A stretch of DNA of 64,000 bases from an uncultured Mollicutes bacterium (GCA_945936135.1 CAMESG010000003.1:1-64000), one strand, 5' to 3'. Counted from the stretch's first letter, positions 6,166 through 26,094 are shown. The notes: generated by a model not told the origin, from the letters alone. Made by a program: numbers and translations.

Positions 6166-6220
6166 AGCAAAACCTCACCGAACGCAAAACGCTTCTAAGC
6201 AAAGAAAGGCAAATAACAGG

Positions 6221-6406
6221 CTATTTGGCCTTTTTGGCGCCAAGAATCTTTAGGTATTTATATTGATTCTTTAATACCCGCTTTGCCGCATCTTTAGCGG
6301 CATACTCACTGGAAGCGTCAACTGTGATTGTTGATTTTTTATAGGATGAAAAGAATCCGTTGCTGTACTCGAACTCGACTATCCATTTTGAATCGAAAAA
6401 ACCCAT
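6221..6406 (-). CDS. Small hypothetical protein in the Druantia-like operon
   Basis: A 61-aa product with a good ribosome binding site (AAGGAG, 8 bases before ATG). Aromatic residues and a likely beta-strand segment (KWIVEFEYSNGFFSSYKK) are followed by an Ala/Lys-rich helix (SSEYAAKDAAKRVLKNQYK). No family is recognised. It follows the UvrD-like helicase by 17 bases and precedes the GmrSD-like gene, so it is almost certainly co-transcribed and could be an accessory or immunity factor; that is inference. Confidence 0.65.
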   Translation of the reverse strand: MGFFDSKWIVEFEYSNGFFSSYKKSTITVDASSEYAAKDAAKRVLKNQYKYLKILGAKKAK

Positions 6407-6423
6407 TCTTATTCTCCTTATAT

Positions 6424-8460: not shown

Positions 8461-8474
8461 GGGCGTCGCTCCTT

Positions 8475-11400: not shown

Positions 11401-14400
11401 TCAAATGTTGTCGAACAGCTGAGGACATCTAAGTCCTGACTCTTGAAAAGATTTTGGTAGAAATAGCCTTCTTCTTTGTCGAGCTGAGCGGTGTGTTCCA
11501 CCACTCGCAACGGGATAAGCGGCAAATCATGATACATGCGGAAATAATGGTCTTGGGCTTCTTGCTCTGTGGGATCGACTTCGTGCAAATGCCCATCGCA
11601 GCGATAAGTCGGGCAAACACCATTTACATTTACCGGAGTAAGACGGTGACATTTATCGCACCGATACCACTTCCTAGGTTTAGAAATGGTTAGCATGTTC
11701 CCGTCGACTTTGAAGCCGGTGCTTTCAGAATGGAGAATATGAGGTTTTCCATCTTGGCGAGCGAAGAATTGCTTCCAGAGTGCTTCAAGGAATTTATACG
11801 CATCTTCCGGTTTGACATTTGGATCGGATTCTTTCATGATCCGCAGCAAATAATCGAAACGCTTGTTCGAAACGGATGCTTTCGATGGCAAAAAGGATTT
11901 CACATAACCTTCTGGCTTATTTTCGCGGTATGTTCTTTCGATTCCTTTGTATGCGAAATACTCTTTTTCGGCAGGCGTGAAGGAAATGGGATAATATATG
12001 GCTCCATCTGAAATCATGCTCAAGGCCAAGATCGTGCAGAGTCTTGCATAGTCTTCGGTTTTCATGCTGTAGTATTCCTTCGTCGGGAATTTGATGGTTG
12101 GGTTGAAGCCAATGCCAAGCATGCCCAAAGACATCAGCGAGTGGGCTTCTTGGTTACTGATTAATTCGCGAAGAACGGCTTGCCATGCTAACTTTGAATA
12201 GTTGAATTTACCGGCATTGCCGCTCTTTTTTTGCCTTAAATATTCATCGAAAGGGATAATTTCGTTGTCTTCGAGTTTCTTTGCGACTTTATCAACAAAG
12301 TCAGGCAAAGATATCGCGTCGGTGCATTCATCGATTGCTTCTCGGATGATTTTGCCGAATAAGATGGCATCGTATGAGGTTGAGAAATAGCTTGCAAAAT
12401 ATGCAGCTGCTTGTCTGGAGTCGGAGAAGGCAATGAATTGTTTCGCCTTATGGACTTCCTCAACGATTTCTGAGCTTCCGTCTTCAAAGAAATCGAAACC
12501 CGAATCGTCGATGGTCACTTTCTTTTCATGGCTAGGTAGCTGTTCAAACAGAGCTGTACCGATGACGCTTGTTGATGCTTCTTGACCACTGAAGAAACCA
12601 CGGAGAATTCCCATTCTGTTTACGTTTTCGCAATGGATGCATTTCGTAACCCGGCCGTCTTTGGCATTTGTTGTTTTGACTTTAAACACCTTTACGAAAG
12701 GCGTGTGGTGGCCGCACGATGTTTTGGTGACTTCATTGGCAGGGCGAATAAAGCCACAATGTGGACAGATTTCGCACTCTTCTACCACCTCTTCGTTATC
12801 AGCAAGGCTTTCCCCTTCATCCGTATCGCTATAGGAATCCGCGATAAGGTAAGCTTCTTTGATTTCGTCGGGTTCAGCGGAAGATTTTTGAACCAGGATT
12901 TGATGATCGTCTACATAGCCCAAAAGATATAGAGCGTGGCAATGGGAGCAAGTAACGGCTTCAAATACTTTCCATTCTTCTCCACCATCGATGATTTTGT
13001 TTCTGCGGGTCAATGAAAGTGTTTTGTGCGGTGCAAGAGTGATGTAGATTCCTTCCGTTGCCCTTAAGAAAGTGTGGTAACGGGAATCAAATAGTTTCTC
13101 TCCGTTCTTGCAAGCTCTAGATGAAACCTCAACGAAGGAAGAGACTTGATCTTCGTTCCATTCCATGAAATCCGCTACTTCAGCGACCTCTTTAGGCGTG
13201 GACAAGAATCGCTTAATTCTCCAATAGGTTCCATCTTTGACGATGATTTCAAAAAGATATTCCCCTAGATCTTTTGTTTCGAATTTGAATTGAGGGTAAA
13301 GCTCCGTGATCTTTTTAATGGCGAGTTCGCCCTCGTATCCGTCATCGAGAATCTTTTCGATTGCCTTATAGAAAGAAGGGCCAAGTGTATAAGTCTCCTG
13401 TTCCTGCCGTCTTTTAATTCTTGTCGCTCGGACGATGTCTTCTTCTTCGAAACGGGCTCCGGTCAAGTTTTGAGCAAAGCGAATGACTTTGTCATTGCTG
13501 TCTTCATCACCCAATGTAGCGGAGGTTAGGAAAAACTGTATTCCAGTATCGAATTTAGGTTTGATTTTGGCTTGGACGCGGCGCAAAAGCATGGACACTT
13601 CAATGCCGGTTGAGCCGGTATATGTATGGGCTTCGTCCAAAACGATGTGGCGCCACTCGGTTGAAAACTCCCCATCGAAGAAGACGTTGTCCTCTGGTCT
13701 CAACAATAGATACTCCAGCATCGCATAGTTCGTTATCAGGATGTGTGGAGGTTGCTTTTTCATCCGCTCACGGCTTAGGATCTCATTGGGGAGAGGTTCG
13801 CGAAGGCGAGTGTCATCGTCGCGTTTGCCATGTAGCTTAATGTACTGATCGCGGGCTCCTTCGATTTTGCCTTTTGATTCCTCATATTCTTTTGTTTGGC
13901 CGGTATAGCAACCAAAGGTTATTTCTGGGTAGTCGACGAGGATTTTGCGGAGACGATCCATCTGGTCGTTCGCCAAAGCATTCATTGGGTAAATAATGAG
14001 AGTCCGAACGCCAGGTTTAATTGTTAAAGTCGGATCCTTAGGTTTTTTCCCACATAACGCTACACGTGCCTCATCGACTTCGGACATGAGTTGGTTGAGG
14101 ACCGGAATAAGGAAACATTCTGTTTTACCAGAGCCTGTGCCAGTGGAAACGATAAGGTTTTTTCGTTTTAAAGCTTTTTCCAGGGCCTGTCCTTGGTGGA
14201 AATGCAAGGTCATGCCCACAAAGCGATCTATGGTCAAAAAGCCTGAGCTTAATGTTCCGGACTGGACCAATGATTTAATAGTTGGGCCTTTCGCGAACGA
14301 ATTTGACACTTCGAGGAAGGGACCCTTTTCGAAATATTGTTGGCTGTTGATGGCTTTTTGAAAGAGCTCACGGTAAACCGGGTCTTCAAGGTCAAACATA

Positions 14401-14465
14401 GTCTTTAGATACTGCCGGTACTGAAGCGCGATTGCCTGTGAGGCTTTAATTACATTAAATCCCAT
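8475..14465 (-). CDS. druE: DruE-like giant DEAD/DEAH helicase with DUF1998 and nuclease-like C-terminus
   Basis: A 1996-aa superfamily 2 helicase: STGTGSGKT at 107-115, LDEAH at 276-280, LTSATLG, and motif VI QRAGRAGRS at about 1048. Several CxxC pairs lie in the middle insert. A Cys-rich DUF1998/MrfA-type region is at ~1570-1600 (CPEHCGG, CYSCLRTYQNQ). After it, PDFVFWPS (~1677), FLDGFAFH (~1695) and GKFIVWSLSW have the pattern of a PD-(D/E)xK/Vsr-like nuclease fold. Size, order and the 1-base overlap with the 1162-aa gene upstream (TAATG) match DruE of Druantia type III anti-phage systems. Domain recognition is strong; the Druantia assignment is by architecture, without a profile search. 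Confidence 0.78.
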   Translation of the reverse strand: MGFNVIKASQAIALQYRQYLKTMFDLEDPVYRELFQKAINSQQYFEKGPFLEVSNSFAKGPTIKSLVQSGTLSSGFLTIDRFVGMTLHFHQGQALEKALKRKNLIVSTGTGSGKTECFLIPVLNQLMSEVDEARVALCGKKPKDPTLTIKPGVRTLIIYPMNALANDQMDRLRKILVDYPEITFGCYTGQTKEYEESKGKIEGARDQYIKLHGKRDDDTRLREPLPNEILSRERMKKQPPHILITNYAMLEYLLLRPEDNVFFDGEFSTEWRHIVLDEAHTYTGSTGIEVSMLLRRVQAKIKPKFDTGIQFFLTSATLGDEDSNDKVIRFAQNLTGARFEEEDIVRATRIKRRQEQETYTLGPSFYKAIEKILDDGYEGELAIKKITELYPQFKFETKDLGEYLFEIIVKDGTYWRIKRFLSTPKEVAEVADFMEWNEDQVSSFVEVSSRACKNGEKLFDSRYHTFLRATEGIYITLAPHKTLSLTRRNKIIDGGEEWKVFEAVTCSHCHALYLLGYVDDHQILVQKSSAEPDEIKEAYLIADSYSDTDEGESLADNEEVVEECEICPHCGFIRPANEVTKTSCGHHTPFVKVFKVKTTNAKDGRVTKCIHCENVNRMGILRGFFSGQEASTSVIGTALFEQLPSHEKKVTIDDSGFDFFEDGSSEIVEEVHKAKQFIAFSDSRQAAAYFASYFSTSYDAILFGKIIREAIDECTDAISLPDFVDKVAKKLEDNEIIPFDEYLRQKKSGNAGKFNYSKLAWQAVLRELISNQEAHSLMSLGMLGIGFNPTIKFPTKEYYSMKTEDYARLCTILALSMISDGAIYYPISFTPAEKEYFAYKGIERTYRENKPEGYVKSFLPSKASVSNKRFDYLLRIMKESDPNVKPEDAYKFLEALWKQFFARQDGKPHILHSESTGFKVDGNMLTISKPRKWYRCDKCHRLTPVNVNGVCPTYRCDGHLHEVDPTEQEAQDHYFRMYHDLPLIPLRVVEHTAQLDKEEGYFYQNLFKSQDLDVLSCSTTFEMGVDVGELETVFMRNMPPSASNYAQRAGRAGRSTTSAAFALTFCNKSNHDFNYFDRPVDMINGVIAPPHFKIDNEKIALRHIYSSALAFFFKIYKEYFTTASGFMNKNPDTGLVGFEVLKEYLNSKPEDLKNYLLASFPTDIAKKFKIETFGWLSYLYGEPKENFPNFDKVKAIYDQDLAVLWAEYNKAKAAGSGEQYAFKRRINTYETETIVSFLSRNNILPKYGFPVDTVSLTGNVLTDKADSIDDLDLSRDLSMAISEYAPGCQVVANGKLITSRYVKTMPGKGWRLYDFIECPFCHTINVELHKQHVKGEKVACSQCHQELKPFDRRTFLVPEFGFVADKDIGRPSLIKPERNYRSEASFASYDDKIPENTYTIGSTTISVAKINDGPMAILNKQDFWVCPDCGYAEEANIADAKMSDTHHFKDAHMDPNGYWCKTHDLHRYSLGYHFLTDVIRIKINAPINQEKPWDEAYSVLQAIVLAACDELNIDNGEIAGCLQYYAGIGASYAFILYDNTPGGAGHVKRLDDQTTLLHVLINAYNRAKNCPEHCGGEEGDSSCYSCLRTYQNQKHHDSIKRSYVVDYLGTVLEGYSDAETESTLEQDFLNKIFDDTDSYKATGDDKTVYICKFGGNEWRLEPQVYLDIKHNVVKPSKPDFVFWPSDPAKKAIAVFLDGFAFHNNIVHDDSIKRDALIKSGKFIVWSLSWNDLKKPGEDYALQTLDTSLMPNHAGGNQSINDISQTNPYDMLLSILADPGDYEQRMADIANAIALCLINPSTSDVVDSWSAESNEINDVLEIFDTDNPTQIGRYEIEGSANFYVLSQKTDTANPIVAVLADTISKRTATYRKQWNGYLQFANVMQFCKGFVMMSTMGIKLGLYSLLEGVRPISNTDAGKWNELLPLLFGEAKAFAEECISHHVEPADTTGFELDDGSVAELVWEDKKIVYLSKDEMVFKTNFEAAGYRIITSVEELS

Positions 14466-17400
14466 TATTGCTCCTCCACCACTAAATTAAGGCCATAGAG
14501 ATTGTCATCGAGCTCGCGAATCTCTTTTCGACGGAGGCCTTTTGTCTTGTTGTATTTTTCAAGTTGGTCCGTTTTGATGAGCCTGCATGCAACGCGATCA
14601 TAGAGTAATGGATTGATACCACTATCCTCTTTGACGTTTCTAAGAACGATAGGCCGCTGGGGTCTGAATTTATTTTGGAAAATGAGAATGACCCAGTAAC
14701 GGAATTCGTATTTGCCAGCGATTCTCTCAAAGAGCTTTCCTTCATAAATCACCGTGTTTTTGTCGAGAAGTTCTTCATGGTCTTCATCGTAAGTGCGGGA
14801 ATTGATGATAAATTCGTCGTCATCCTCGTAATCCGCGTTTTCAAGATCCAGCAAATGCTGGGCATCCACCGGGCCAACCACCTGGATAAATGTTGGGTAG
14901 CTGATTGGGTCTGGCGCATATTGTTTTTTGAGCCATTGGACGGAACGAACTCGATAAATAGTGCCAGCGAGGTTCGTAATATCTCGAAGCCTCGCGATAA
15001 TGGGGTAATTCTTGTTTAAGGGAATAGATATTTCGTCTTCTTCGAAGAAGCCTTCTGAAGTTTCATTTTCGTAAAGATAAAATTCATAGTTCCCTTCTTG
15101 GAGATCCGTGTCGATTTCAAATGAGCCATCTGGTTCGATTGAAATGTCATCTTCAACTTTTTCTCCGTTGTGGTAGATCGAAAGAGTGTAATCGCCACCA
15201 CCTTCTATCTCGAATGTGCCGAAGAGTCTCTTGTTCTCGAAGTCACCAAACACTTGATGATCGATGATGATGCTGTGGCAATAGACGTCCAAGAAACTAT
15301 GCCCAACGCCTGAAATGGTAAGCAGGACAGAAACTTTGTCTTTGGAGCGGTCGACAATCCATGATTTGATTTGATCGACCTTATATTTGATTGTTCCGTC
15401 TTCGCCCGGCTCAGAAGAAACAATGCCTTCGCTTTCAACGTCGAATTCAGACAAATCGGCTTGAACTCGAACAGATCTCCAGTCAAATGGGCCGGTGAAA
15501 TAGACATATTCCGGGATATTTTTGAAGAAAACTGGCTGAGGTTTGATGTGATTCCACGTGTCTTTTTCGGAGAATCTCCAATAAAGCGAGGGGATTGGAA
15601 ATTCGATTTCGAGTTCTTCGCTTCCGAGCATGTACTTAAGGAAGAGGGATCGTTTCTCTACGGAATATCCTGGGGTCTTATTCGGTTCGATCGCAAAGGT
15701 AAGCCTGCTTTGCTTGATGCTGACATCCCAGTCATTGCCTTTTTTGACGACTCCAGATGCTGACGGGAATACAATGCTGCCGGTTTCTTTGAAAACATAA
15801 GGGGCATCTTCAAACGCATAGGTGAATCCCTTGAGATAATAGAACTCGTCAGAGATTTGTTTTTTCCCATTCGTTTTGAGAAGGATTTTGACGAGACCTT
15901 CCGCAATTGGCAATTTGGAAAGGTCAACCAAATAGCCATAGACATCTTCTGCCCCGTCGCTCAACTTGAACTCTGTAGTGAAGGACTTGTCGAGTTTGAT
16001 GGGTTTTCCGTTATCGTTGAGGATGAGGAAGGCTCCTTCAATCTCGGCTTTCTTGCATTGGACGAGAACGCTTGGTAGTTTCGAATAGATGGGTTTGTTG
16101 TCGATTTCTGCTCCGAAAACAAGATCTGTATCAAGCAAACCGTCGGAAATCCGCTCCCCCGCAAGAACGCTTGTGCCATCGGGAAGTTGGATTAAATCGT
16201 CTTTCTCTAGTTTCAATTGAATGACCCCATAGCCTTCCATTTGGTACGGATCAAAAGTCTTGCCAGCCACTAATGGTGGCTCTGTTTTGTAGAAGGCGAA
16301 GACCGTGCCCACTGGTACCGTGGCTGTGTGGTGATCAATATACCTTCCTTTGGCATCGAAGAAACGAACCGTATCGGAGCGTATGGCTTTGTTGAACAAA
16401 GGCTTATCTAGCGTTGGTGACACCAATCGCGCACCGATTTTGGAAAATAGGTTTTCCGGGTCGAATGGATTGAGCTCCGTTTCCTTGGTGTATATGCCCG
16501 CCTTTCCTTTTAACGGAACGGTCGGAAGGATAGTTTCCGGTCCGTCATCATAAGAGATGTGCCACTGCATGCCCACTGCATCTTCTTCGGTGCAGTTGGG
16601 AAGGCGCTGCTGGTGAAGTCTGAGTTTGAATGAATAAGTCTCGTAGTTGATAAAGAGGGTTGGTCTTAGAAGTAGAGTTTCTCCACGAGCTGCCTTGTAG
16701 TCTTTCTTCTTCGTTTCTTTCTGGAATTTTCCTGCAGGATTCTCAGTCCATTCTTTTAAAAGGCGAATGATCCTCGTCTGGGAATCTGGTATTGCTTCAT
16801 GGTCCCAGAAACAACGGTCGATAAGATTTAGGTATTTTTTTAAACGCACTTTGCTGCCTATCCTGTTGTTTAAAAGGGCATAGGTAGTATGGATCATCAG
16901 GTTGTTTTTGCTTTGATCCTTGTTGGCTTCGATTTCATCGATGAGGATATCAAAATTGTCGGCTCCATTTTCTCCGTATAGGTTCTCGGCATTTCGATCA
17001 AGGTCGAGACGCCAATAATCAAATAAATAGTCGAAGAGTTTATTTGCGCAGGGTGTAGTTACGAATGAATGCATGCAAATGGTGTCAACGGCCCCTTTGC
17101 TTTCGGTAACGATGTCTTTCTTATGTCTTTTTAAGACATCGAGAACGATTCGGTTAATCACAGTTTGATGATTGCTAGTGATTTCAAGGTCATATTCCGC
17201 TTTGATTCCACGCCAGAAATTGCCCTCGGAATAATATTTCTGACCATAGAGAATGACGCCAAGCGCAAAGGCTTCTCCGCTGATTGGTTTGAAGGCGGCG
17301 GGCGATTCTTTGAGCCGAGCCAATTCAAATCTCATTAACGCGTTGAGGGCTTTCTCTTCGGATTCATTTAAAACGATGTCGCCGATAAATCTCTTTTCTT

Positions 17401-17953
17401 GAAATTCTTTTGCGATTCGGCGAAGAAGCTTTTCCTGGTCGGAAAGAATCAGACCATTAATATGAGCGACCAAGCCTTTGCCTTGTTTGATGATTCGTTT
17501 ATTTTTCTTTTGTTCGGATAGGAACTGGTTTAATTCCTCTTTGCTAGGCTCTTCCCCTTCTTCCGTGATGTAGATTCGGAAGGTGCCATAGCTGCTGCTA
17601 AAAGCCACTTGGAAATAACGAATCAGATTCAAGTTTTGAAGAACCGATTTGGTTTCCTGGACCCGGACATAGAGGGTATCACTGATCTTCACGATTTTTT
17701 CAGCACCAGTAAGGAATTCCTTCATGGAAGAAATGAAGGCATATGGCTGATTGAATAAGCCTTTGTTTTCGGCTTCCAGAATCGCGGTTTTGCCTTTCTC
17801 TTCCTGAAATAATTTCCAGAAGAAAACCTTCATTAGCTCATACCATGACTCAAGTTGGTAAACCGTTTTCGAGAAGTAAAGAAAGGCAGGTTTAATCTTC
17901 TTGCCTCGCAGGGACATCAGGTCTTTGAATGATACTAATTTGATTGCGCTCAT
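14465..17953 (-). CDS. druH: DruH-like large protein of a Druantia type III-like pair
   Basis: A 1162-aa protein without a recognisable enzymatic motif. The N-terminal half is charged and helical; the C-terminal half (from ~470) is rich in predicted beta-strands with Ig-like stretches such as GTFEIEGGGDYTLSIYHNGE. It is the first gene of the operon and its stop overlaps the start of the giant helicase. In Druantia type III, a ~1000-1200-aa DruH of unknown function precedes a ~2000-aa DruE, and this pair fits that layout. No Shine-Dalgarno sequence is visible before the ATG at 17953, so the start or a leaderless transcript should be considered. Assignment rests on size, context and partner. 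Confidence 0.6.
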   Translation of the reverse strand: MSAIKLVSFKDLMSLRGKKIKPAFLYFSKTVYQLESWYELMKVFFWKLFQEEKGKTAILEAENKGLFNQPYAFISSMKEFLTGAEKIVKISDTLYVRVQETKSVLQNLNLIRYFQVAFSSSYGTFRIYITEEGEEPSKEELNQFLSEQKKNKRIIKQGKGLVAHINGLILSDQEKLLRRIAKEFQEKRFIGDIVLNESEEKALNALMRFELARLKESPAAFKPISGEAFALGVILYGQKYYSEGNFWRGIKAEYDLEITSNHQTVINRIVLDVLKRHKKDIVTESKGAVDTICMHSFVTTPCANKLFDYLFDYWRLDLDRNAENLYGENGADNFDILIDEIEANKDQSKNNLMIHTTYALLNNRIGSKVRLKKYLNLIDRCFWDHEAIPDSQTRIIRLLKEWTENPAGKFQKETKKKDYKAARGETLLLRPTLFINYETYSFKLRLHQQRLPNCTEEDAVGMQWHISYDDGPETILPTVPLKGKAGIYTKETELNPFDPENLFSKIGARLVSPTLDKPLFNKAIRSDTVRFFDAKGRYIDHHTATVPVGTVFAFYKTEPPLVAGKTFDPYQMEGYGVIQLKLEKDDLIQLPDGTSVLAGERISDGLLDTDLVFGAEIDNKPIYSKLPSVLVQCKKAEIEGAFLILNDNGKPIKLDKSFTTEFKLSDGAEDVYGYLVDLSKLPIAEGLVKILLKTNGKKQISDEFYYLKGFTYAFEDAPYVFKETGSIVFPSASGVVKKGNDWDVSIKQSRLTFAIEPNKTPGYSVEKRSLFLKYMLGSEELEIEFPIPSLYWRFSEKDTWNHIKPQPVFFKNIPEYVYFTGPFDWRSVRVQADLSEFDVESEGIVSSEPGEDGTIKYKVDQIKSWIVDRSKDKVSVLLTISGVGHSFLDVYCHSIIIDHQVFGDFENKRLFGTFEIEGGGDYTLSIYHNGEKVEDDISIEPDGSFEIDTDLQEGNYEFYLYENETSEGFFEEDEISIPLNKNYPIIARLRDITNLAGTIYRVRSVQWLKKQYAPDPISYPTFIQVVGPVDAQHLLDLENADYEDDDEFIINSRTYDEDHEELLDKNTVIYEGKLFERIAGKYEFRYWVILIFQNKFRPQRPIVLRNVKEDSGINPLLYDRVACRLIKTDQLEKYNKTKGLRRKEIRELDDNLYGLNLVVEEQ

Positions 17954-18078: not shown

Positions 18079-18543
18079 TTAGTTGTCCTCCTCATAGAAA
18101 AGTTTCCGTTTCATCTGCTCCAAATCCAGGGATAGGAATTCTTCGGTTAGTCGATATCCGAGCGACCAAAGCACCATGTCTAAAAGCTCTGGTTCTTCAA
18201 TTTTTCCGTCTTGGAATGCCTCGTAAGCAACTCGAATCGCATCCTCAACGGCCTGTTTCTTAGTCTTGCCTGACTTCATTTCGCCACGGACGATATCGGT
18301 GATCCCATAGTCCACGCGAATGGCTTTCTTAATGTCATCCATGGTCTTGGCCAGGTCACCGGAGAAGTCATATCCGAGAATCTGAAAGATGTATTTGAGA
18401 TCGATGAAGCCGATCTTCTGCTCGTTGAACATGGCGATACTGACTTTTAAGACGCGGGATTCCGCTTCTTCCTGGTTGCAGCCATTGTCGATGTGTTCCG
18501 CCACCATCGATGTGACGGCTTCTTTGACGTCTTTGTATTTCAT
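18079..18543 (-). CDS. Hypothetical protein with two internal repeats
   Basis: A 154-aa acidic, helical product built from two ~65-residue repeats about 70 residues apart: residues ~10-72 (VTSMVAEHIDNG ... NEQKIGFIDLKYIFQILGYDF) and ~80-142 (ITDIVRGEMKSG ... QDGKIEEPELLDMVLWSLGYR). Each repeat ends with (D/Q)GKI-x(2-4)-(D/E)L ... LGY, which faintly recalls the second half of an EF-hand but lacks its first acidic ligands. The 88-aa protein at 23255-23521 carries a related unit. It starts 9 bases after the SIMPL gene with GAGG upstream and is the second gene of that operon. No function is known. Confidence 0.7.
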   Translation of the reverse strand: MKYKDVKEAVTSMVAEHIDNGCNQEEAESRVLKVSIAMFNEQKIGFIDLKYIFQILGYDFSGDLAKTMDDIKKAIRVDYGITDIVRGEMKSGKTKKQAVEDAIRVAYEAFQDGKIEEPELLDMVLWSLGYRLTEEFLSLDLEQMKRKLFYEEDN

Positions 18544-18552
18544 GGCAATACC

Positions 18553-19210
18553 TCATTTCAATGCGTAGATGATCGTCACGCTGTCGGTGACGGAAAGGTC
18601 ATTCGGGGTGATGTCGATTTCCGGTTCGCTGGATCCGGGCATGGACGCACAGTCAAAGCACATCATGCGTCGGTCGTCGTATTCGACGTTGATCTTCTTG
18701 ACTGAGTAATCAATGCTGAGGATATCACTTAAGATGATGGAGGCCGCTTCAGCGATGATTCCTGCTTTGCGGATCGCAGCTTTCGTGGCCAAGGCCATCA
18801 CTTCTTCTTTGGCGCTATCCGGGTTGCTGAGACGATACCCGAAGCTGATTTTGTCCTCGGTCCCCTTTAGGGCGTTGAGAAGGCCGGAAAGGGTTTTGTT
18901 ATCGAAGCTAAAAGCGACCTGGAATCTTGCAAACGCACGATATCCGACGAACCTTTCGCGGTAATCGCCTTTGGAATCGCGGTAACGTTCGTAATGAGGT
19001 TCTACCTCGAAATAGTTTGTCTTAAGACTGTCTCCTTCAAGTCCTGCTTGAACGATCTTCTCGCGGGTTTCTTTCGTCCTTTTGGCCAAGTGCGTGATCC
19101 CTTTTTCATATGAATCGAAAACCTGGCTGTGCTCGATCGAGACGACGATGATGTCGGGAGCGAACGACTTGGTGGCCTCGCCAGTGATGACCAATGTTTT
19201 TTTCTTGCAT
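18553..19210 (-). CDS. SIMPL-domain (DUF541) protein with a frameshift in its fifth codon region
   Basis: The reading LVITGEATKSFAPDIIVVS ... is the typical opening of a SIMPL (DUF541) domain; the remainder covers one domain of ~213 residues with no signal peptide, so it is cytosolic, unlike many secreted family members. The well-placed start, ATG 19210 with AAAGGAG ten bases upstream, lies in a different frame: the two are separated by an A7 tract at 19197-19203 (minus strand). With A6 the protein would begin MQEKTLVITGEATK. Either the homopolymer is a sequencing error or slippage switches the gene; a TTG at 19194 is the only in-frame alternative. It leads a two-gene operon preceded by the conserved TTCCG-N7-CGGAA box. 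Confidence 0.72.
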
Positions 19211-19236
19211 GGTAGTAATCTCCTTTCGCTGACTTA

Positions 19237-19280
19237 AATGTACTGGGTCTATGTAATAGGTTCTTCCGCGGAACACGGAA
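19237..19280 (-). promoter_or_regulatory. Shared promoter box, copy 1 (SIMPL operon)
   Basis: On the minus strand TTCCG-N7-CGGAAGAA occupies 19280-19261 and TACATT lies 21 bases downstream at 19242-19237. The box starts directly after the stop codon of the Sel1-repeat gene and ends 53 bases before the SIMPL ATG. Two near-identical arrangements precede the other two operons of this block. Confidence 0.65.
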
Positions 19281-21044
19281 TTACTTGGGTCGGTATTTGT
19301 CGAAGCAATCCTTGAAATACCCAGACTTCTTTTCGTCGCGGATCTCATCTGGACCCTCACGGTGGATCTTGGCGAGTTCCTTGAAGGCAAGGGCTTCCCC
19401 TTTCTTCGCGAGCTTTCCTAATAAGGAAGCCGCCTTTTTGGCGGAGATAATATCGGGGTAGCTTCTCCATAAAACGGCTTTGAAGAAAGACCTTTCATCT
19501 TTGATGGTTTCCAGAAACGTCGCTGGGATCGGATCGTCAACGAAGGGATATCGAGCGTCCGCTCCGGTGATGAGACGGCCAAGGAAGACCTGCGCCTTCT
19601 CGTTGCCTTTGCGTGCGAGTTCCTCAACGAATCCGATTGCTTTTTTCGAATCGCCTGCCTCCAAAAGGATGTCCGCATAAAGCAATTGGCAATCGGTGGT
19701 GTTGTAGGCGTTCTCGATGATGGCTCGCTTGACGTAGGACTCCGCCAACGAGAGGTCTTTGCCTTCCGCCCCTTTGTGGTCGTGCATGTAGTAGATCGCA
19801 AGGCGATAAAGCGCCTCTTTCTCCCCTACGGCTTCCGCGCGGAGCAAAAGCTGCAAGGCCATGTCCGCTCCTTCGTCGGTCATGAAATCCAGAAGCAGAC
19901 GAGCTAGGAAGACCATCGCCTTTGAGGAACGCCTTTGGACGCCTTCGTCCGCATAATAGAACGCCGCGGATACCGGGTTCTCGAACTTGAACGGATGATC
20001 GCTTTCGTCATGCGCGAATTTCATGATCTGGGACGCCATGAAGTAGAAGCAATCGCCGCTGCCGGCATCCATGCCTTGCTCAACGTACATCCTCGAAAGG
20101 TCCTGGAGGCCGCGGTTGGCGCACATCCTGGAAGCGAGGTAACTGGCGTTGCCATCGCCCAAAGAAGAACCCATCGATGCGTACTTGAAAGCGCTGGCAT
20201 ACATCTCGTCTTCCGTGTACCAAAGGGCGAGTTGGTAGCAGGCCAAACCTGATTTCTCGTTGTCCGCAAGCGGGGAAAGGTATTCATACATGACGTCGTT
20301 CTCTCCTATCTTCCTCAGGAAAGCGGAGCCCCGGATCATGGCGACTTCGCGGCTTGTCCTGATCTCAAGTTCTTCGATGTGCTCGCGGAAAACATCGGCG
20401 TTTTGCTGGAGATATTCGCGCAAATCGTCGCTTAATTTCGGCAATCCTTCCCCGTGGATCAGCCATTTGATGAGGGCTTCCCCTTCTTCAAAAAGGGCAG
20501 GATCCTCTTGGGAATTGACGGCCATGTGGATTTCGGAAAGAGCCGTTGCCTCGAAGCCGAAAGGGATGGCAACATCGAAGAAGGCTTCCAGGAACTCGAC
20601 TCCGAATGGACGTTCCCTCTCCCCGTTTTCGTGATTGAAAAGCATCTCGGTCACGTCGAGGCCTCTAATGAACATGTTGGCCGCGTAGCTTCTAAGCACC
20701 GGCCTAGGCTCCTGGGTATCGGGATTCTGATAAACGGAGATTCCCGCTTCGAAGAAATACACCTCGAAATATGCATCCTCAGAAGCGGGTCTTTCTGGCT
20801 CGAGAATATAGTTCCTCAAGAATCGTGAGAGTCCTTCGTATACGGTGAAAAGTTGCCCGCGACGGAGCTTCCACGTATGGAAATGCGTCGCATCCTTAAT
20901 GTCGCTGGTCTTCTTCCAAGGAATCCGGCTTAGCTGTCCGTTGTTCTCCAATAAGAAAGACCGCTCCTGCTTCTTGCCGTCGTCATCGAGGTAATGCTGA
21001 TGGAATAGAATCTGAAGTTGTTTGATGGTATCGAAATGGGCCAT
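19281..21044 (-). CDS. Sel1/TPR-like repeat protein
   Basis: A 587-aa protein. The N-terminal ~190 residues (MAHFDTIKQLQILFHQHYLD ...) are not recognised. From ~280 onward there are repeated A-x-Y-x-L-A ... G-x-x-x-A units (ACYQLALWYTEDE, ASYLASRMCANRG, ALYRLAIYYMHDHKGAEGKD, LSLAESYVKRAIIENAYN) of the Sel1/TPR type, which form superhelical protein-binding surfaces. The start at 21044 has AGGAGG seven bases upstream; longer upstream reading is rejected because it overlaps the macrodomain gene. It is a one-gene unit with its own copy of the conserved promoter box. A scaffold or sensor role is inferred from the fold only. Confidence 0.78.
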   Translation of the reverse strand: MAHFDTIKQLQILFHQHYLDDDGKKQERSFLLENNGQLSRIPWKKTSDIKDATHFHTWKLRRGQLFTVYEGLSRFLRNYILEPERPASEDAYFEVYFFEAGISVYQNPDTQEPRPVLRSYAANMFIRGLDVTEMLFNHENGERERPFGVEFLEAFFDVAIPFGFEATALSEIHMAVNSQEDPALFEEGEALIKWLIHGEGLPKLSDDLREYLQQNADVFREHIEELEIRTSREVAMIRGSAFLRKIGENDVMYEYLSPLADNEKSGLACYQLALWYTEDEMYASAFKYASMGSSLGDGNASYLASRMCANRGLQDLSRMYVEQGMDAGSGDCFYFMASQIMKFAHDESDHPFKFENPVSAAFYYADEGVQRRSSKAMVFLARLLLDFMTDEGADMALQLLLRAEAVGEKEALYRLAIYYMHDHKGAEGKDLSLAESYVKRAIIENAYNTTDCQLLYADILLEAGDSKKAIGFVEELARKGNEKAQVFLGRLITGADARYPFVDDPIPATFLETIKDERSFFKAVLWRSYPDIISAKKAASLLGKLAKKGEALAFKELAKIHREGPDEIRDEKKSGYFKDCFDKYRPK

Positions 21045-21065
21045 AAGATTTCCTCCTATGGCCCA

Positions 21066-21109
21066 ATGGTAGTTCGATTGTGTTTTGGCTTCTTCCGCAC
21101 TCCGCGGAA
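21066..21109 (-). promoter_or_regulatory. Shared promoter box, copy 2 (Sel1 gene)
   Basis: On the minus strand TTCCG-N7-CGGAAGAAG runs from 21109 and TACCAT is at 21071-21066, 21 bases beyond the box. The box lies immediately after the macrodomain stop codon and 48 bases before the Sel1 ATG. It overlaps where a -35 element would sit relative to TACCAT. Confidence 0.65.
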
Positions 21110-21112
21110 AGA

Positions 21113-22336
21113 TCACCACTTCTCGCCGTGGTCGACGTAGATTTTCTTGCGGTCTTCCTTGTATTCGTAAATGGATTCCGAAGTCGCGAAGGAATACGCC
21201 TTGACGATTTCCGTCCAGGGGTTGCGGGAACGGATCTTGCCTACGCATTCGCGGAAGGCGCGTTCATGGCGCTCGTATTTCGAAAGTGAGAAACCGCAGA
21301 AGTCATAGACTTCCATGACCTCTTCCGGCTTCAAATGCAAGGCGATGCAGGCGAGAAGGATTTCGGCTTTGTTGGGGCGCTGCCAGACATAGCCCTTGCC
21401 TTTGGTGTTCTTGACCTTCTTCCATTCGTATTCCGGGCAATGGCTGGTCTTCCAGTCCATGAGGAGGGCTTTGTCGATCGGCGTGCCCTTCTCCTTGGAT
21501 TCATGGAGGGTGTTGATGGTGTCCTCCAAGGAATCGAAATCGGTTTTGAAGTCACCGACGAGGGAATTGATTTCAAGCCAAACATCGTCAAGAGCCGCTT
21601 CCTTATCGGCCTTTTTGCCTTTGAAACGGGCGAAGACGCATTTTCGGACCAAAGTGGCGAAGGAATCCTCATCTTCGATTCCAATTTCCTCAAGAAAGGG
21701 AATATGAGGTTTCTCGGGAGCTCCCATAGAGGGGGCTGCCATCACATCCCTGGTTTGGAAGCGACGTCCCCTTCCGCGAGGATAGCTGCCATCGACGGGC
21801 ACGCTCCTCATTTCGTCGCGGAAACGCTCTTCGCGCATCATCTCCTCTTCTTCAGGGGAGGTGAATTCGACGGAATAAACGTTAAAGAAGACCTCAATCT
21901 CGGGATGCTGTTCCGCAAAGCGGTAGCATACGCGCCTTGCGATGGATGCGACCTTATCGGAACGATAGCCATTTACCCCGGTTCCGATCAAAGGAACGGA
22001 GATGGATCTCATCCCGGAATCCAATGCTAATTGGAGCAAACTTTCATAGCATTTGGTGATCTGCGAATTGTCGCGGTCGAAGCGTCTGAAAGGCGTGATG
22101 ACGTGGATGATTTTCTTGCAGGGAAGGCCGAAAGAATCGGTCATGTAGACCGATCCGAAAGGAAGGTTCATGCCCTTCTCGCTGACTTCGTCCATTAAGG
22201 CAGCCGCATTGTTTGACGCGCCAAGGATGGACCGATAGATCCTGCCGGGCTGGCGAATATATTCGCCCGCGCCCAAGGAATTGACGATGCAATCGCCAGG
22301 GAACGTCGTTATGTCGATTGATATGTTGTGATACAT
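21113..22336 (-). CDS. Macrodomain protein with a helical C-terminal domain
   Basis: A 407-aa protein. Residues ~1-165 form a macrodomain, the ADP-ribose-binding fold: GDCIVNSLGAGEYIRQPG at 14-31 matches the first ligand loop region and VPLIGTGVNGYRSDKVASIA the second. The usual Asn-Ala-Ala-Asn is replaced by Asn-Ser-Leu-Gly, so hydrolase activity is uncertain while binding is likely. The C-terminal ~120 residues (RPNKAEILLACIALHL ... VYDFCGFSLSKYERHERAF) resemble a helical domain seen attached to macrodomains and helix-turn-helix proteins in Bacillota. It follows the PARG gene by three bases with GGGAGG before its ATG, so the two are co-translated and probably act on the same ADP-ribose substrate. 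Confidence 0.8.
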   Translation of the reverse strand: MYHNISIDITTFPGDCIVNSLGAGEYIRQPGRIYRSILGASNNAAALMDEVSEKGMNLPFGSVYMTDSFGLPCKKIIHVITPFRRFDRDNSQITKCYESLLQLALDSGMRSISVPLIGTGVNGYRSDKVASIARRVCYRFAEQHPEIEVFFNVYSVEFTSPEEEEMMREERFRDEMRSVPVDGSYPRGRGRRFQTRDVMAAPSMGAPEKPHIPFLEEIGIEDEDSFATLVRKCVFARFKGKKADKEAALDDVWLEINSLVGDFKTDFDSLEDTINTLHESKEKGTPIDKALLMDWKTSHCPEYEWKKVKNTKGKGYVWQRPNKAEILLACIALHLKPEEVMEVYDFCGFSLSKYERHERAFRECVGKIRSRNPWTEIVKAYSFATSESIYEYKEDRKKIYVDHGEKW

Positions 22337-22339
22337 CGA

Positions 22340-23233
22340 TTACCTCCCGAATACTTTCTTGAAAACATCGAGGTTGCCACCGGGCCTTCCACGATCAAAG
22401 ATCGCGAACTCGACGGTCTCGAAATGATAGAGCTTTAGATTGTCCATGAAGAGCTTGGCAACGATTTCCGGCGGATTGGAGAACGCGCCGCAGCCAAACG
22501 CTCCGAGGATAAGAACTTCCACACCTTCTTTTTTGGCGGCTTGGAGGATCTTCTGGATGCGCATGTTCATCTCACTGACGAAGCGATGCTTGTCGTGGGG
22601 ATCGAAATAGCTAAGCTGAGGAGCCGCGCAGGTGATGACATCGACGGAATGCCAATCCTCCTTCTTCATGAGTTTGGGAGCGGATTCGTCCGTCTTGAAC
22701 ACCACCACTCCAGGCGTGTAGATCAAATCGTCGTTGCCGTAATGGTCGATCTCGCCTTGCCGATAGAGATCCTGATGGTGTTTATAGAAGCCCTCATATT
22801 CGGCATGGATACAGGGATAGAGGGTCGAAACGCGGCAAAGACATTCCTCCTGCGCACCAGCGCTCCAAGGTGAACCACCGACACTATGGTTGTTGGCGAA
22901 ATTCAAAACGGCAACCTTCTTGCCTTTGTAGGCGGAAGCCGCTTCGAAGGAGCGCTTGCCGGAAAGGATAATGTTCTCCGTCGGGCCATCGACGCCCTTG
23001 TTGAGGTCATCGGATCCGTTCTCGTAGACGATGTATTGTGCCTTGACGGATTCTTGGATCGCGGCTTCGAGCTCAGCCAGTCCTTCGCAGAGCCTTTGAG
23101 TATGGTCCATTACAAAATGGTTCAAGGACCGATAGCCATCGGCCAAGACTTGGTCGACCATGCCGTTATACATGGTCATTTCTTCTTCATAAGATAACGG
23201 CATCGCGTTGATGCCTTGATTGTTGAATTCCAT
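22340..23233 (-). CDS. Microbial-type poly(ADP-ribose) glycohydrolase-like protein
   Basis: A 297-aa protein of the TIGR02452/microbial PARG family, which removes ADP-ribose by cutting ribose-ribose or ribose-protein bonds. The diagnostic elements are NFANN at 111-115, a Gly-Gly at 119-120 and GAQEE at 126-130; the Glu pair carries the catalytic acid in the family. AFGCGAFSNPP in the C-terminal part fits the macrodomain-like phosphate loop. All key residues are present, so it should be active. It is third in the operon, 21 bases after the 88-aa gene, with AAAGGA upstream. Together with the DraG-type gene and the macrodomain gene it makes three ADP-ribose-directed proteins in one transcript. 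Confidence 0.87.
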   Translation of the reverse strand: MEFNNQGINAMPLSYEEEMTMYNGMVDQVLADGYRSLNHFVMDHTQRLCEGLAELEAAIQESVKAQYIVYENGSDDLNKGVDGPTENIILSGKRSFEAASAYKGKKVAVLNFANNHSVGGSPWSAGAQEECLCRVSTLYPCIHAEYEGFYKHHQDLYRQGEIDHYGNDDLIYTPGVVVFKTDESAPKLMKKEDWHSVDVITCAAPQLSYFDPHDKHRFVSEMNMRIQKILQAAKKEGVEVLILGAFGCGAFSNPPEIVAKLFMDNLKLYHFETVEFAIFDRGRPGGNLDVFKKVFGR

Positions 23234-23254
23234 ATTGGTTTTCCTTTCGATATT

Positions 23255-23521
23255 TTACGCTTGGGGGACGGATTTTTGAATTGCCGGTCTACGACCGTCC
23301 ATGCCCATTGCCCGGAAGAACTCCTTGTTCAGACTTTGGAAGATCTGCTTCTGCTCCCCGAAATGGATTTCGAAGCCGAGCATCTCCGACATGGCAAGGT
23401 AATCGGAACGGTCGATGTCGCCGTTGAGAAGTTGGTCTCCGATGTCATGAAAGGCCTCGGCTCTGCATTTGCCCTGCCGGAGCAAGTTATCGACGTGCTG
23501 TTTACGCTGTTTCTCGTTCAT
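23255..23521 (-). CDS. Small helical protein related to the 154-aa repeat protein
   Basis: An 88-aa product starting at ATG 23521 with AAAGGAG eight bases upstream, inside the end of the DraG-type gene (2-base gap). The segment GKCRAEAFHDIG ... LLNGDIDRSDY ... MSEMLGFE has the same spacing and end motif as each repeat of the 154-aa protein at 18079-18543 (GK ... A ... DGKI ... EL ... LGY). Both are in operons with the same promoter box. No known family is recognised; it could be a binding partner or adaptor within the ADP-ribose system. Confidence 0.65.
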   Translation of the reverse strand: MNEKQRKQHVDNLLRQGKCRAEAFHDIGDQLLNGDIDRSDYLAMSEMLGFEIHFGEQKQIFQSLNKEFFRAMGMDGRRPAIQKSVPQA

Positions 23522-23523
23522 GG

Positions 23524-24342
23524 TCACTCCTTTCGAACGCTTTCGAGGACGGCTTTGATGTCCTCGGGCAGGCGTTTCTTCGCCTCGATGAGGTATTCTT
23601 CGGGGATTTCCTTGTAATAGGATTCCGCGATCGGGCAAGCGATGGCGGCCATCGTATCGGCATCCCAACGAATCGAGAGGCAAAGCCTCATGCAATCGTC
23701 GAAGGAATCGCTGTGGAGGAAGCACCAAAGCGCTTGGGGGACGGTGACCTGGCAGATCTCCTGCCCGTGGGAGAGCTCCGCCATCATGGCCTCGTAATTG
23801 AGTTTTAGGTCATAGTGCTTCTCAGCGTATTCGCGGATTTGGTCGCGGGTCGCGCCGTGAAGGGCCATGTAGATGCACGTGGCGATGACCACCGCTCCTT
23901 TGATTCCTTCGGGATGGTTATGGGTGCATTCGGTCACCTCGATGGCAAGCTTCTCGCGTTCATCGATGCTGGAAGCATAGTAAGCCACGGCGGAAACGCG
24001 CATCGCAGAGCCATTTCCGCAAGAGTTATAGGGCTTCGGATCGGCTTGGTAGATCCAGGAAGCGAATCTGCCTCCATAACCGGCATCTGGATACTTCCTG
24101 GCCCATTTTTGAAGATAGAAGGGACAGGGTTTGCCTTCGTCTTTGTGGGCGAGGAAATCTGCGATTGCAGCGGTAAGGACGCTGTCATCGGTAAAAGACG
24201 AGGAATCATGGATCTGGATGTATTGCTTGGGCGTCTTGGGTCCATGCTTGAATTCGTAATAGGAACCATAGATATCGCCGATGACGGCTCCGTATATTCC
24301 TTTGTAGTTTTTGACGTTGATCAGGTTTTTGTAGTTGCTCAT
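23524..24342 (-). CDS. DraG-type ADP-ribosylglycohydrolase
   Basis: A 272-aa enzyme of the ADP-ribosyl-hydrolase (DraG/ARH) family, which uses two Mg or Mn ions to remove ADP-ribose from proteins or small molecules. Metal ligands are visible: TDDS at 51-54 and RWDADT at 225-230 (Asp227, Asp229, Thr230). GNGSAMR at 109-115 and HNHPEG at 141-146 are also family signatures. Length is normal. It is the first gene of the operon (small protein, PARG, macrodomain protein), preceded by the conserved box 56 bases upstream and by AAGGAGG. No ADP-ribosyltransferase is recognised nearby, so its substrate may come from the host, a phage, or an unrecognised gene here. Confidence 0.92.
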   Translation of the reverse strand: MSNYKNLINVKNYKGIYGAVIGDIYGSYYEFKHGPKTPKQYIQIHDSSSFTDDSVLTAAIADFLAHKDEGKPCPFYLQKWARKYPDAGYGGRFASWIYQADPKPYNSCGNGSAMRVSAVAYYASSIDEREKLAIEVTECTHNHPEGIKGAVVIATCIYMALHGATRDQIREYAEKHYDLKLNYEAMMAELSHGQEICQVTVPQALWCFLHSDSFDDCMRLCLSIRWDADTMAAIACPIAESYYKEIPEEYLIEAKKRLPEDIKAVLESVRKE

Positions 24343-24371
24343 GTTCGAGCCCTCCTTGGTTTGACGCCATC

Positions 24372-24414
24372 ATGGTAACCGGGGGGCGAAACACTTCTTC
24401 CGCGCTTGACGGAA
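24372..24414 (-). promoter_or_regulatory. Shared promoter box, copy 3 (ADP-ribosylglycohydrolase operon)
   Basis: On the minus strand TTCCG-N7-CGGAAGAAG starts at 24414 and TACCAT is at 24377-24372, 20 bases beyond the box. The box ends 55 bases before the ATG at 24342. It lies between two divergent genes, so it might also affect the plus-strand gene at 24469. Confidence 0.65.
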
Positions 24415-24468
24415 AAACGAAACGAAAAGACCGGATAAACTGGTGGCATAACAAAGGAGGACAGAGTT

Positions 24469-25068
24469 GTGCCTGTTTACATCGGATTACCAAAAGAGGC
24501 GACAATCGCTTATCAAAGCGGAGACATCATCCAATATAAGATGGGGGATGAATGGATTTATGAATTTGGCGAGTGGAAAACTATTAACGGAGAGTGGCAA
24601 AAAGAGCGAACCGGCATTTGGTTCACCACAGATTCAATAATGTATATCTACAAAGGCCTGACTACGGATTGTCCATGGAAAGAGCAATGGGAATCCTGGG
24701 CTCCTAAAGATCTCATGGAAAAGGAAAGGAGAAGGGTCATAGTGCCGGTCCCATTAGAATTGGTTGAATGTTTGAAGAAAATCAAAGAAAAGCTTCACAA
24801 GAATCCCGATATTCACATTGGATGGTACGCAAAGCACACCGGTTTAGAGTTTTTCTACAAAGGAAGCATATTTAAAATCGACCCTTACAGTCTGGACTTT
24901 GATGAAATAGATTTCAGGCCTGCGTGCGATTTGGACAAAGAACATTACGAAGGCGGCGCTGTCGGAAATGCGGATGCTTATTTCGAACATAACGAAAGAA
25001 TCATGCGTGCCATGCTGAACGAAGAACTCGGTATCGTGTTCTTCCGTGGGTACGGTGACATAGATTAG
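24469..25068 (+). CDS. Hypothetical protein divergent from the ADP-ribose operon
   Basis: A 199-aa product beginning with GTG, supported by AAAGGAGG eight bases upstream. It is soluble, rich in Trp and Glu, with no motif I recognise (DEWIYEFGEWKTINGEWQKE; KNPDIHIGWYAKHTGLEFFY). It is the only plus-strand gene between the integrase and the methyltransferase apart from the insertion sequence, and faces the ADP-ribose operon across 126 bases containing the conserved box. An unrecognised ADP-ribosyltransferase would be one possibility, but no R-S-E or H-Y-E signature is seen. Confidence 0.65.
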   Translation: MPVYIGLPKEATIAYQSGDIIQYKMGDEWIYEFGEWKTINGEWQKERTGIWFTTDSIMYIYKGLTTDCPWKEQWESWAPKDLMEKERRRVIVPVPLELVECLKKIKEKLHKNPDIHIGWYAKHTGLEFFYKGSIFKIDPYSLDFDEIDFRPACDLDKEHYEGGAVGNADAYFEHNERIMRAMLNEELGIVFFRGYGDID

Positions 25069-25072
25069 CTTT

Positions 25073-25921
25073 CTAATCGGAGAAGGCCGCGATGAAAGCA
25101 TCAACGCTCACGTAGTGTTCGAAACCTTTGCCGGACAAATCCCTCGCCACCATAACCCCTATTTTTCCGAAAGCTTTGCCTTCGTCAAATACAACTAATG
25201 AGAAGGTCTTATGGTGTTCTTCGGTCTCGAAGAATGTCGTTTTGGTCGAGGGAAATCGTTGCGAAATGAATAGTGTTAAAGCCATTCTTTCTTCATAAGA
25301 AGCTGTGTCGATAATCGCCTGTATCGGCTCCTTCTTAACGGTGGATAGAATCGGTTCGTCCGTGTCATAACGCTCGTAAATCGAATAGATTTCCTTGAAT
25401 TCGTTGAAAGAGATGGAGCGATTCCCCACCACTTCGCGATAGCAAACGCCAGGACGCCCTGGAAGGAAGATCCGGTTACGAATATCAATGAAGTACCAAG
25501 GGCATCCCCAGTAACCATATCCCGATTTGCATTTGAAACTTTTGCTTTTCAAATAATGGACGATTCCATTGGGGACTTTTCCTTCCGGATCGAGATTTCC
25601 CTGGCCGTCATCAAACCGTACTAGGAAGTAATCCTGGTGGTCTCTTTTGAAGGCTTTGTTTGCATCCAAAGCCACCGCATCTTCCGTCATCGCAGCCCGA
25701 TAGAAGGCGTCGAATTCTTCGATGGAAATCCATTCGCGGCTATGGTGAATAAACAGGGTCGATTTCACCGGTGCGCCATCGATGTCGATATGACGGTGCG
25801 AACCGGCTTGGCAATAATGGATGTAGGGTTTGAGTTCGGGGTGTGATTCCGCGTAACGCATCATGTCCCCAAACTGCATCTTCAAATAGGCGTGCAGTCT
25901 GCCATCGCTGATTCCAAGCAT
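25073..25921 (-). CDS. Unknown protein under a SAM-riboswitch-like leader
   Basis: A 282-aa product with no recognised family. It has a Cys/Gly/Trp-rich middle (KCKSGYGYWGCPWYFIDIRN), an N-terminal SHRHID motif and no signal peptide or membrane segment. The ATG at 25921 has AAAGGAGAG at good spacing. Its 5' leader carries its own promoter, an S-box-like aptamer and an intrinsic terminator, so expression should rise when S-adenosylmethionine is scarce. Genes with this control usually make, import or recycle methionine, cysteine or SAM; this one does not resemble them. It ends four bases after the convergent 199-aa gene. Confidence 0.72.
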   Translation of the reverse strand: MLGISDGRLHAYLKMQFGDMMRYAESHPELKPYIHYCQAGSHRHIDIDGAPVKSTLFIHHSREWISIEEFDAFYRAAMTEDAVALDANKAFKRDHQDYFLVRFDDGQGNLDPEGKVPNGIVHYLKSKSFKCKSGYGYWGCPWYFIDIRNRIFLPGRPGVCYREVVGNRSISFNEFKEIYSIYERYDTDEPILSTVKKEPIQAIIDTASYEERMALTLFISQRFPSTKTTFFETEEHHKTFSLVVFDEGKAFGKIGVMVARDLSGKGFEHYVSVDAFIAAFSD

Positions 25922-25984: not shown

Positions 25985-26094
25985 AGGTTATCAATGTCAG
26001 CCGTTCCCATCATGCAAGCTTTGGCACCTTGCCCTTGTAGGGTAGGTTGTCGGTGGGTCATAGGGCTTGTCCCTCGCCACTCTCTTTATGGACG
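25985..26094 (-). promoter_or_regulatory. SAM riboswitch-like aptamer (S-box clan)
   Basis: On the minus strand the order of conserved blocks is AAAGAGAGTGGCGAGGGA, GCCCTATGA, CCGACAACC and AAGGTGCCAA, the hallmark core of SAM-I-type aptamers (AGAG ... GAGGGA ... GCCCuaUGA ... GCAACC ... AAGGUGCuAA). One position of the GCAACC block reads ACAACC. P1 is not a long obvious stem: CCAT just 5' of AAAGAG could pair with ATGG after the last block, with little or no P4, so a SAM-I/IV-type variant is possible. Confidence 0.7.

Follow-up and report, generated by a model that had tools for sequence, protein, structure and literature searches.

NrtR is known for the ADP-ribose-dependent control of NAD metabolism genes. 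It is a Nudix-HTH protein, in which an ADP-ribose-binding domain and a DNA-binding domain are joined (cited within PMC9503650). The same source outlines ARG-centred conflict systems, in which a glycohydrolase occurs without a transferase and is accompanied by one-component regulators of the Nudix-HTH or WYL-HTH kind, and for which the reversal of phage ADP-ribosylation is the proposed role (PMC9503650). As described there, a Nudix- or WYL-HTH regulator is found in about 42% of these systems, which come mainly from actinobacteria, planctomycetes, and proteobacteria (PMC9503650). The locus treated here lies in a 64,000-nucleotide stretch of DNA (the window) from an uncultured Mollicutes bacterium of the rumen, where an ADP-ribose-removing block is situated beside phage-defence genes, and is arranged in what are probably four units with a common paired site.

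Genes of the block and their surroundings

Among the block genes with a family match (several have none), we found PF03747, PF10021, and PF01661, and no ADP-ribosyltransferase (Table 1). The block adjoins genes for a DruE-like helicase, a UvrD-like helicase, and a GmrSD-type protein, which together with a 1162-aa protein without a family match make up the defence-like genes at 4408-17953 of the window. In another genome of the family (L143), a macro protein and a glycohydrolase are likewise found beside genes related to the UvrD and DruE genes of the window. Across the order, macro proteins with long C-termini are placed beside glycohydrolases (L140-L146), and one such locus (L141) also has a SIMPL and a small protein.

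Some further features of the region were observed along the way. The well-placed ATG at 19210 and the rest of the SIMPL gene stand in different frames, with an A7 run between them (19190-19215, minus strand), and this break may be an assembly error, a mutation, or slippage. By eye, the small proteins encoded at 18079-18543, at 23255-23521, and near 9957-10174 of a second locus in a relative (L139, see below) seemingly have in common a repeated motif, G....A.......D......LGY. A SAM riboswitch (26004-26094, minus strand) precedes the gene at 25073-25921, and a similar-looking leader is found ahead of the block-adjoining gene in the same-genus relative G012 (L043, at about 16000).

Table 1. Promoter elements and genes of the block, in window coordinates
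Feature	Coordinates	Strand	Details
Box P1	19264..19280	-	TTCCGTGTTCCGCGGAA, then GAA; centre -42; exact counterpart in G012 (L043:10651)
Box P2	21093..21109	-	TTCCGCGGAGTGCGGAA, then GAA; centre -42; exact counterpart in G012 (L043:12424)
Box P3	24398..24414	both directions probably served	TTCCGTCAAGCGCGGAA on minus strand; kept in G010 (L044:1291) and G012 (L043:14839)
Predicted -10 of P1	19237..19242	-	TACATT, 21 nt after CGGAA
Predicted -10 of P2	21066..21071	-	TACCAT, 21 nt after CGGAA; TATCAT in G012
Predicted -10 of P3, toward ADP-ribosylglycohydrolase operon	24372..24377	-	TACCAT, 20 nt after CGGAA; TATAAT in G012
Predicted -10, divergent promoter	24436..24441	+	TAAACT, 21 nt from the 24398 box; identical in G010
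ADP-ribosylglycohydrolase (ARH3/DraG type), first gene behind P3	23524..24342	-	PF03747 1.6e-33; ARH3 structures
Small protein, ~88 aa	23255..23521	-	homologue in G012
Microbial PARG-type protein	22340..23233	-	PF10021 1.7e-22
Macro domain + C-terminal domain, proposed regulator; last gene of first operon	21113..22336	-	PF01661 6.7e-18; hhalign
587-aa protein behind P2	19281..21044	-	no family match; probably helical repeats (by eye); 39% identical G012 orthologue
SIMPL (DUF541) protein behind P1	18553..19210	-	PF04402 4.1e-26
154-aa protein, second gene behind P1	18079..18543	-	G012 orthologue
199-aa protein, divergent gene, likely fourth unit	24469..25068	+	without known family

Paired boxes and the geometry of their promoters

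Ahead of three operons of the block, TTCCG-N7-CGGAA(GAA) is found as an exact match on the minus (coding) strand (P1-P3 in Table 1), and each copy is followed after 20-21 nt by TACATT or TACCAT, all precisely where an earlier note on this DNA had placed them. Read on the coding strand, the sites of P1, P2, and P3 are TTCCGTGTTCCGCGGAAGAA, TTCCGCGGAGTGCGGAAGAA, and TTCCGTCAAGCGCGGAAGAA, and the promoter-proximal end of the three boxes is CGGAAGAA. Measured from the boxes, the start codons are 53 nt (P1, ATG 19210), 48 nt (P2, ATG 21044), and 55 nt (P3, ATG 24342) away, within the 48-56 bases that had been claimed. In all eight boxes that we compared, position 6 is a pyrimidine and position 12 a purine, and as read from these sites the putative operator consensus is TTCCGY-N5-RCGGAA, the pattern expected for a symmetric dimer site.

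It is by position and geometry that the boxes stand out, not by palindrome abundance. With up to two mismatches, the bare palindrome occurs 43 times in the window versus 51 expected; its exact form occurs seven times in the genome (1.23 Mb) versus 18 for a reversed control pattern, and mismatch-tolerant scans of the bare palindrome gave no enrichment, only chance level. The earlier note had regarded many genome copies in coding regions as evidence against its reading. Of the four genome copies outside the block, three are in coding sequence, and the other is intergenic and terminator-like. One of the three, at 57412-57428, is also in the window, as its fourth exact copy, and probably arose by chance. 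When the genome was searched for the box with TAnnnT at the right distance, much as that note had advised, we obtained four matches, which all fall within the block, and zero with the control. Moreover, the identical repeat is found in four of 40 upstream regions of the window (three boxes, one of them common to two divergent genes), and it is the only identical 5+5 repeat that recurs among these 40 regions. In 1000 shuffles, an identical 5+5 repeat was common to three regions in two cases and to four regions in none. The boxes, then, are not due to chance.

For the geometry, we took the -10 hexamer as -12 to -7 in computing centres, and all positions are relative to the predicted -10s. A dyad near -42 that overlaps the -35 region is where class II activators bind. 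Three genomes together provide ten promoter orientations in which an exact box is accompanied by a -10 at 20-22 nt, and the palindrome centre is at -42 in eight of these and at -41 and -43 in the remaining two. The best -35 match at these ten promoters is 2-3 of 6 at a spacing of 15 to 19, the -10s match at 4-6 of 6 positions, and a scan with the consensus sigma-70 promoter gave no match at the boxes. Here, the sequence features of a class II activator-dependent sigma-A promoter are found together, namely a dyad near -41.5, a weak or absent -35, and a sigma-A-type -10.

Two other uses of the box can be weighed against this geometry. Many Cro/CI-type proteins are repressors, and the box could conceivably be the operator of a repressor (a macro-HTH protein or some other) that covers the -35 region and is released by ADP-ribose. 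Negative one-component regulators, of the Nudix- and WYL-HTH kinds, have also been proposed for similar ADP-ribose systems in the account cited above (PMC9503650). However, none of the ten promoters has a -35 worth repressing, and a strict phasing between box and -10, at about -42, would be needless for a repressor, and we regard this reading as rather improbable. The earlier note had left the choice between an activator and an alternative sigma factor. A dimeric activator is the part of that proposal that fits, while a sigma factor sits poorly with a full palindrome at -42 and sigma-A-type -10s. GGAA, located here at -37 to -34, resembles ECF -35 elements, and an ECF-type factor might use CGGAAGAA as its -35 element; in addition, sigma genes beyond RpoD are present in all three genomes, and a stand-alone region 4 protein is encoded in the second box-headed operon of G012. 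On the other hand, all sites have the same distal arm TTCCG, of which a sigma factor would have no need, and the -10s, when compared with the generally known ECF -10 consensus, resemble TATAAT instead (and are TATAAT outright in one G012 promoter). The region 4 protein has no stand-alone counterpart in the other genomes searched, and it was set aside as a common regulator on that account. An ECF-type sigma factor at these boxes is thus, in our estimation, very unlikely.

Conservation of the boxes and probable extent of the regulon

In G012, the glycohydrolase of the block is 80% identical to that of the window, the macro protein 48%, and the counterpart of the 587-aa protein 39%, and three exact boxes are found ahead of the same or equivalent genes. 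The arms of these boxes are identical in 10 of 10 positions, the seven central bases in 1-5, and the spacer in 5-8 of 21, and the -10s include a perfect TATAAT and a TATCAT. That the boxes arose by chance, or as copies that spread with the operons, would accord with the unenriched bare palindrome in the genome, but the G012 equivalents with their different centres and spacers, a site at a paralogous locus, and the shuffle tests all speak against it; conservation largely refutes this explanation, which we find scarcely credible. In G010, the third genome compared, a box is located ahead of a 97% identical glycohydrolase, and the start alone of the macro protein is visible.

The paralogous locus is found on contig 49 of G012 (L139), and has an exact box, TTCCGCGGAAAACGGAAGAA, with TATATA 21 nt after CGGAA. 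The operon headed by this box (L139:8533-11332) encodes an AAA ATPase, two small proteins, and a 77-aa stand-alone sigma-70 region 4 protein. Directly behind it is a paralogue of the block's macro protein, with both the macro and C-terminal domains, though this gene is outside the box-bearing operon, beyond a terminator-like stretch. Altogether, this genome, G012, and G010 have 19 exact boxes, eight of which are at the block or the one further locus and all upstream of genes; the other 11 are chance-like, with ten inside ORFs and one terminator-like. A genus-wide scan for the box with a -10 placed the other members at or below the control level. At the genes examined in the distant macro and ADPRH loci of the order (L140-L146), TTCCG-N7-CGGAA is absent, and box conservation is therefore limited to three genomes.

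Read in the plus direction, the box at 24398 is followed after 21 nt by TAAACT, both in this genome and in G010, and downstream of this hexamer is the divergent gene at 24469, which has a ribosome site of its own. As its sequence suggests, this box is probably a two-way promoter that also drives gene 24469. Because of the second -10 on the other side, conserved in G010, the regulon probably consists of four units rather than three; the three boxed operons of the earlier note are retained, and the divergent gene is added to them. The proposal that one regulator acts on all operons of the block appears well supported, and has gained from the conservation of three boxes in G012 and from the fourth box at the paralogous locus.

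The macro protein as candidate regulator and its likeness to known systems

In an all-against-all comparison, the macro protein is the sole protein found to be common to the window block and the two box-bearing loci of G012. Within the protein, the macro domain comprises residues 48-133 (PF01661, 65.2 bits with a cut-off of 22). The best alignments with macrodomains in the PDB begin past the catalytic-loop region, and on visual inspection the sequence lacks the glycine-rich loop and its aspartate (IVNSLGAGEYIRQPGRIYRSIL). In both respects, the domain would seem suited to binding or sensing rather than to cleavage.

The last 190 residues match the C-terminal parts of the order's other macro proteins (hhalign 96.7%, E 3.4e-10) and, over about 52 columns, a set of Cro/CI-like modules (hhalign 93%, E 3.5e-7). 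This latter match covers the C-terminal half of the module and leaves the recognition-helix part uncovered. The C-terminal parts of those other macro proteins are themselves related to Cro/CI-like modules, one of which, in a Ruminococcus albus protein with the annotation of a helix-turn-helix regulator, scores above the Pfam HTH_26 cut-off; in the C-terminus of the window macro protein, no Pfam HTH was found even at E 10. AlphaFold runs with the whole macro protein and with its C-terminal domain (two sequences) were of low confidence and recovered the macro fold alone, and no HTH fold was among the Foldseek matches of the C-terminal domain model (pLDDT 58). The profile matches suggest that the C-terminal domain is distantly related to helix-turn-helix modules of the Cro/CI type. 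This remote relation and the presence of the macro protein at all three box-bearing loci make questionable the earlier statement that the regulator is not obviously encoded among the operons.

The C-terminal subclass of this protein is found in this genus only, in the box-bearing genomes, with no other occurrence among 395 genomes of the class, and viral contigs searched for the macro protein gave no match. In Firmicutes, for example Selenomonas (pSRC2) and Peptoclostridium, there are proteins that join a macro domain to a C-terminal Cro/CI-like domain in the same order and with profile-related C-termini, whereas the window subclass differs from them in a long insertion, in the divergence of the first half of its C-terminal domain, and in its restriction to this genus. 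Matches to Firmicute proteins with a macro domain and an HTH-like tail are mostly named deacetylases or macro-domain proteins, and our literature searches returned no description of a macro-HTH regulator.

We propose that the macro protein is an ADP-ribose-sensing regulator. According to this model, a dimeric, locus-dedicated activator would occupy TTCCGY-N5-RCGGAA at -50 to -34, replace the missing -35 contact, and recruit sigma-A RNA polymerase to the weak TAYCAT/TATAAT -10. The macro domain would be the sensor, with free ADP-ribose or a related compound as its ligand, and the C-terminal domain would bind the box. Once molecules of the cell are ADP-ribosylated, basal glycohydrolase would release ADP-ribose, which on binding to the macro domain would bring the dimer onto the box and activate all four units. 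What we observe is the boxes with their geometry and conservation, the families of the enzymes, the link to the macro protein family, and the missing -35; the rest of the chain we infer, including activation instead of repression, a DNA-binding role for the C-terminal domain, and ADP-ribose as the signal, and we give the model as a whole not quite an even chance. Alternatively, the activator at -42 may be another protein, either the product of a gene in another part of the genome or one of the block's small proteins, with the macro protein a mere ADP-ribose enzyme or binder. The geometry and conservation suit any activator, the 587-aa and 154-aa proteins are also common to the two main loci, there are many uncharacterised genes, and the structural models leave the macro C-terminus short of a proven HTH. 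Nonetheless, a chromosomal regulator with sites at these loci alone would be unusual, and the second G012 locus has the macro protein, while sequence comparison did not find the 587-aa and 154-aa proteins there, and another activator seems unlikely to us. Returning to the macro protein, it is a possibility, if a rather tentative one, that its macro domain is the sensor of a one-component, ADP-ribose-responsive activator, with its operator at -42, for ADP-ribose-removing operons beside defence genes. If this is true, a poorly understood class of ADP-ribose systems would gain a defined operator, a defined promoter geometry, and a concrete candidate for its regulator, and the bacterial sensing of free ADP-ribose against ADP-ribosylating attack would become directly testable. 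This reading would also suggest that some of the Firmicute proteins with a macro domain and an HTH-like tail are transcription factors.

Compared with the ARG-centred systems as outlined in PMC9503650, the block is alike in having a glycohydrolase with macro and PARG-type proteins, no transferase among its annotated genes, a defence neighbourhood, and, within the block, a proposed ADP-ribose-responsive regulator. It differs in its proposed sensor, which is a macro rather than a Nudix or WYL domain, in its predicted activator instead of a repressor, and in its lineage, and for those systems the passage on them (section 3.8) gives no operator sequences; no Nudix- or WYL-HTH regulator was present among the block proteins and flanking ORFs scanned. 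In class II promoters of the CRP and phage Mu Mor type, a short inverted repeat at about -42 likewise replaces the -35, and Mor itself binds a pair of 5-bp inverted repeats within a 16-bp element whose centre is at -43.5 (PMC4390567). Unlike these examples, the proposed regulator has no sign of kinship with CRP or Mor. From NrtR, it would differ in its sensor, its DNA-binding domain, and its operator, and in serving an ADP-ribose block rather than NAD metabolism. In both, however, an ADP-ribose-binding domain is joined to a DNA-binding domain, putative in the macro protein, for the control of NAD or ADP-ribose genes.
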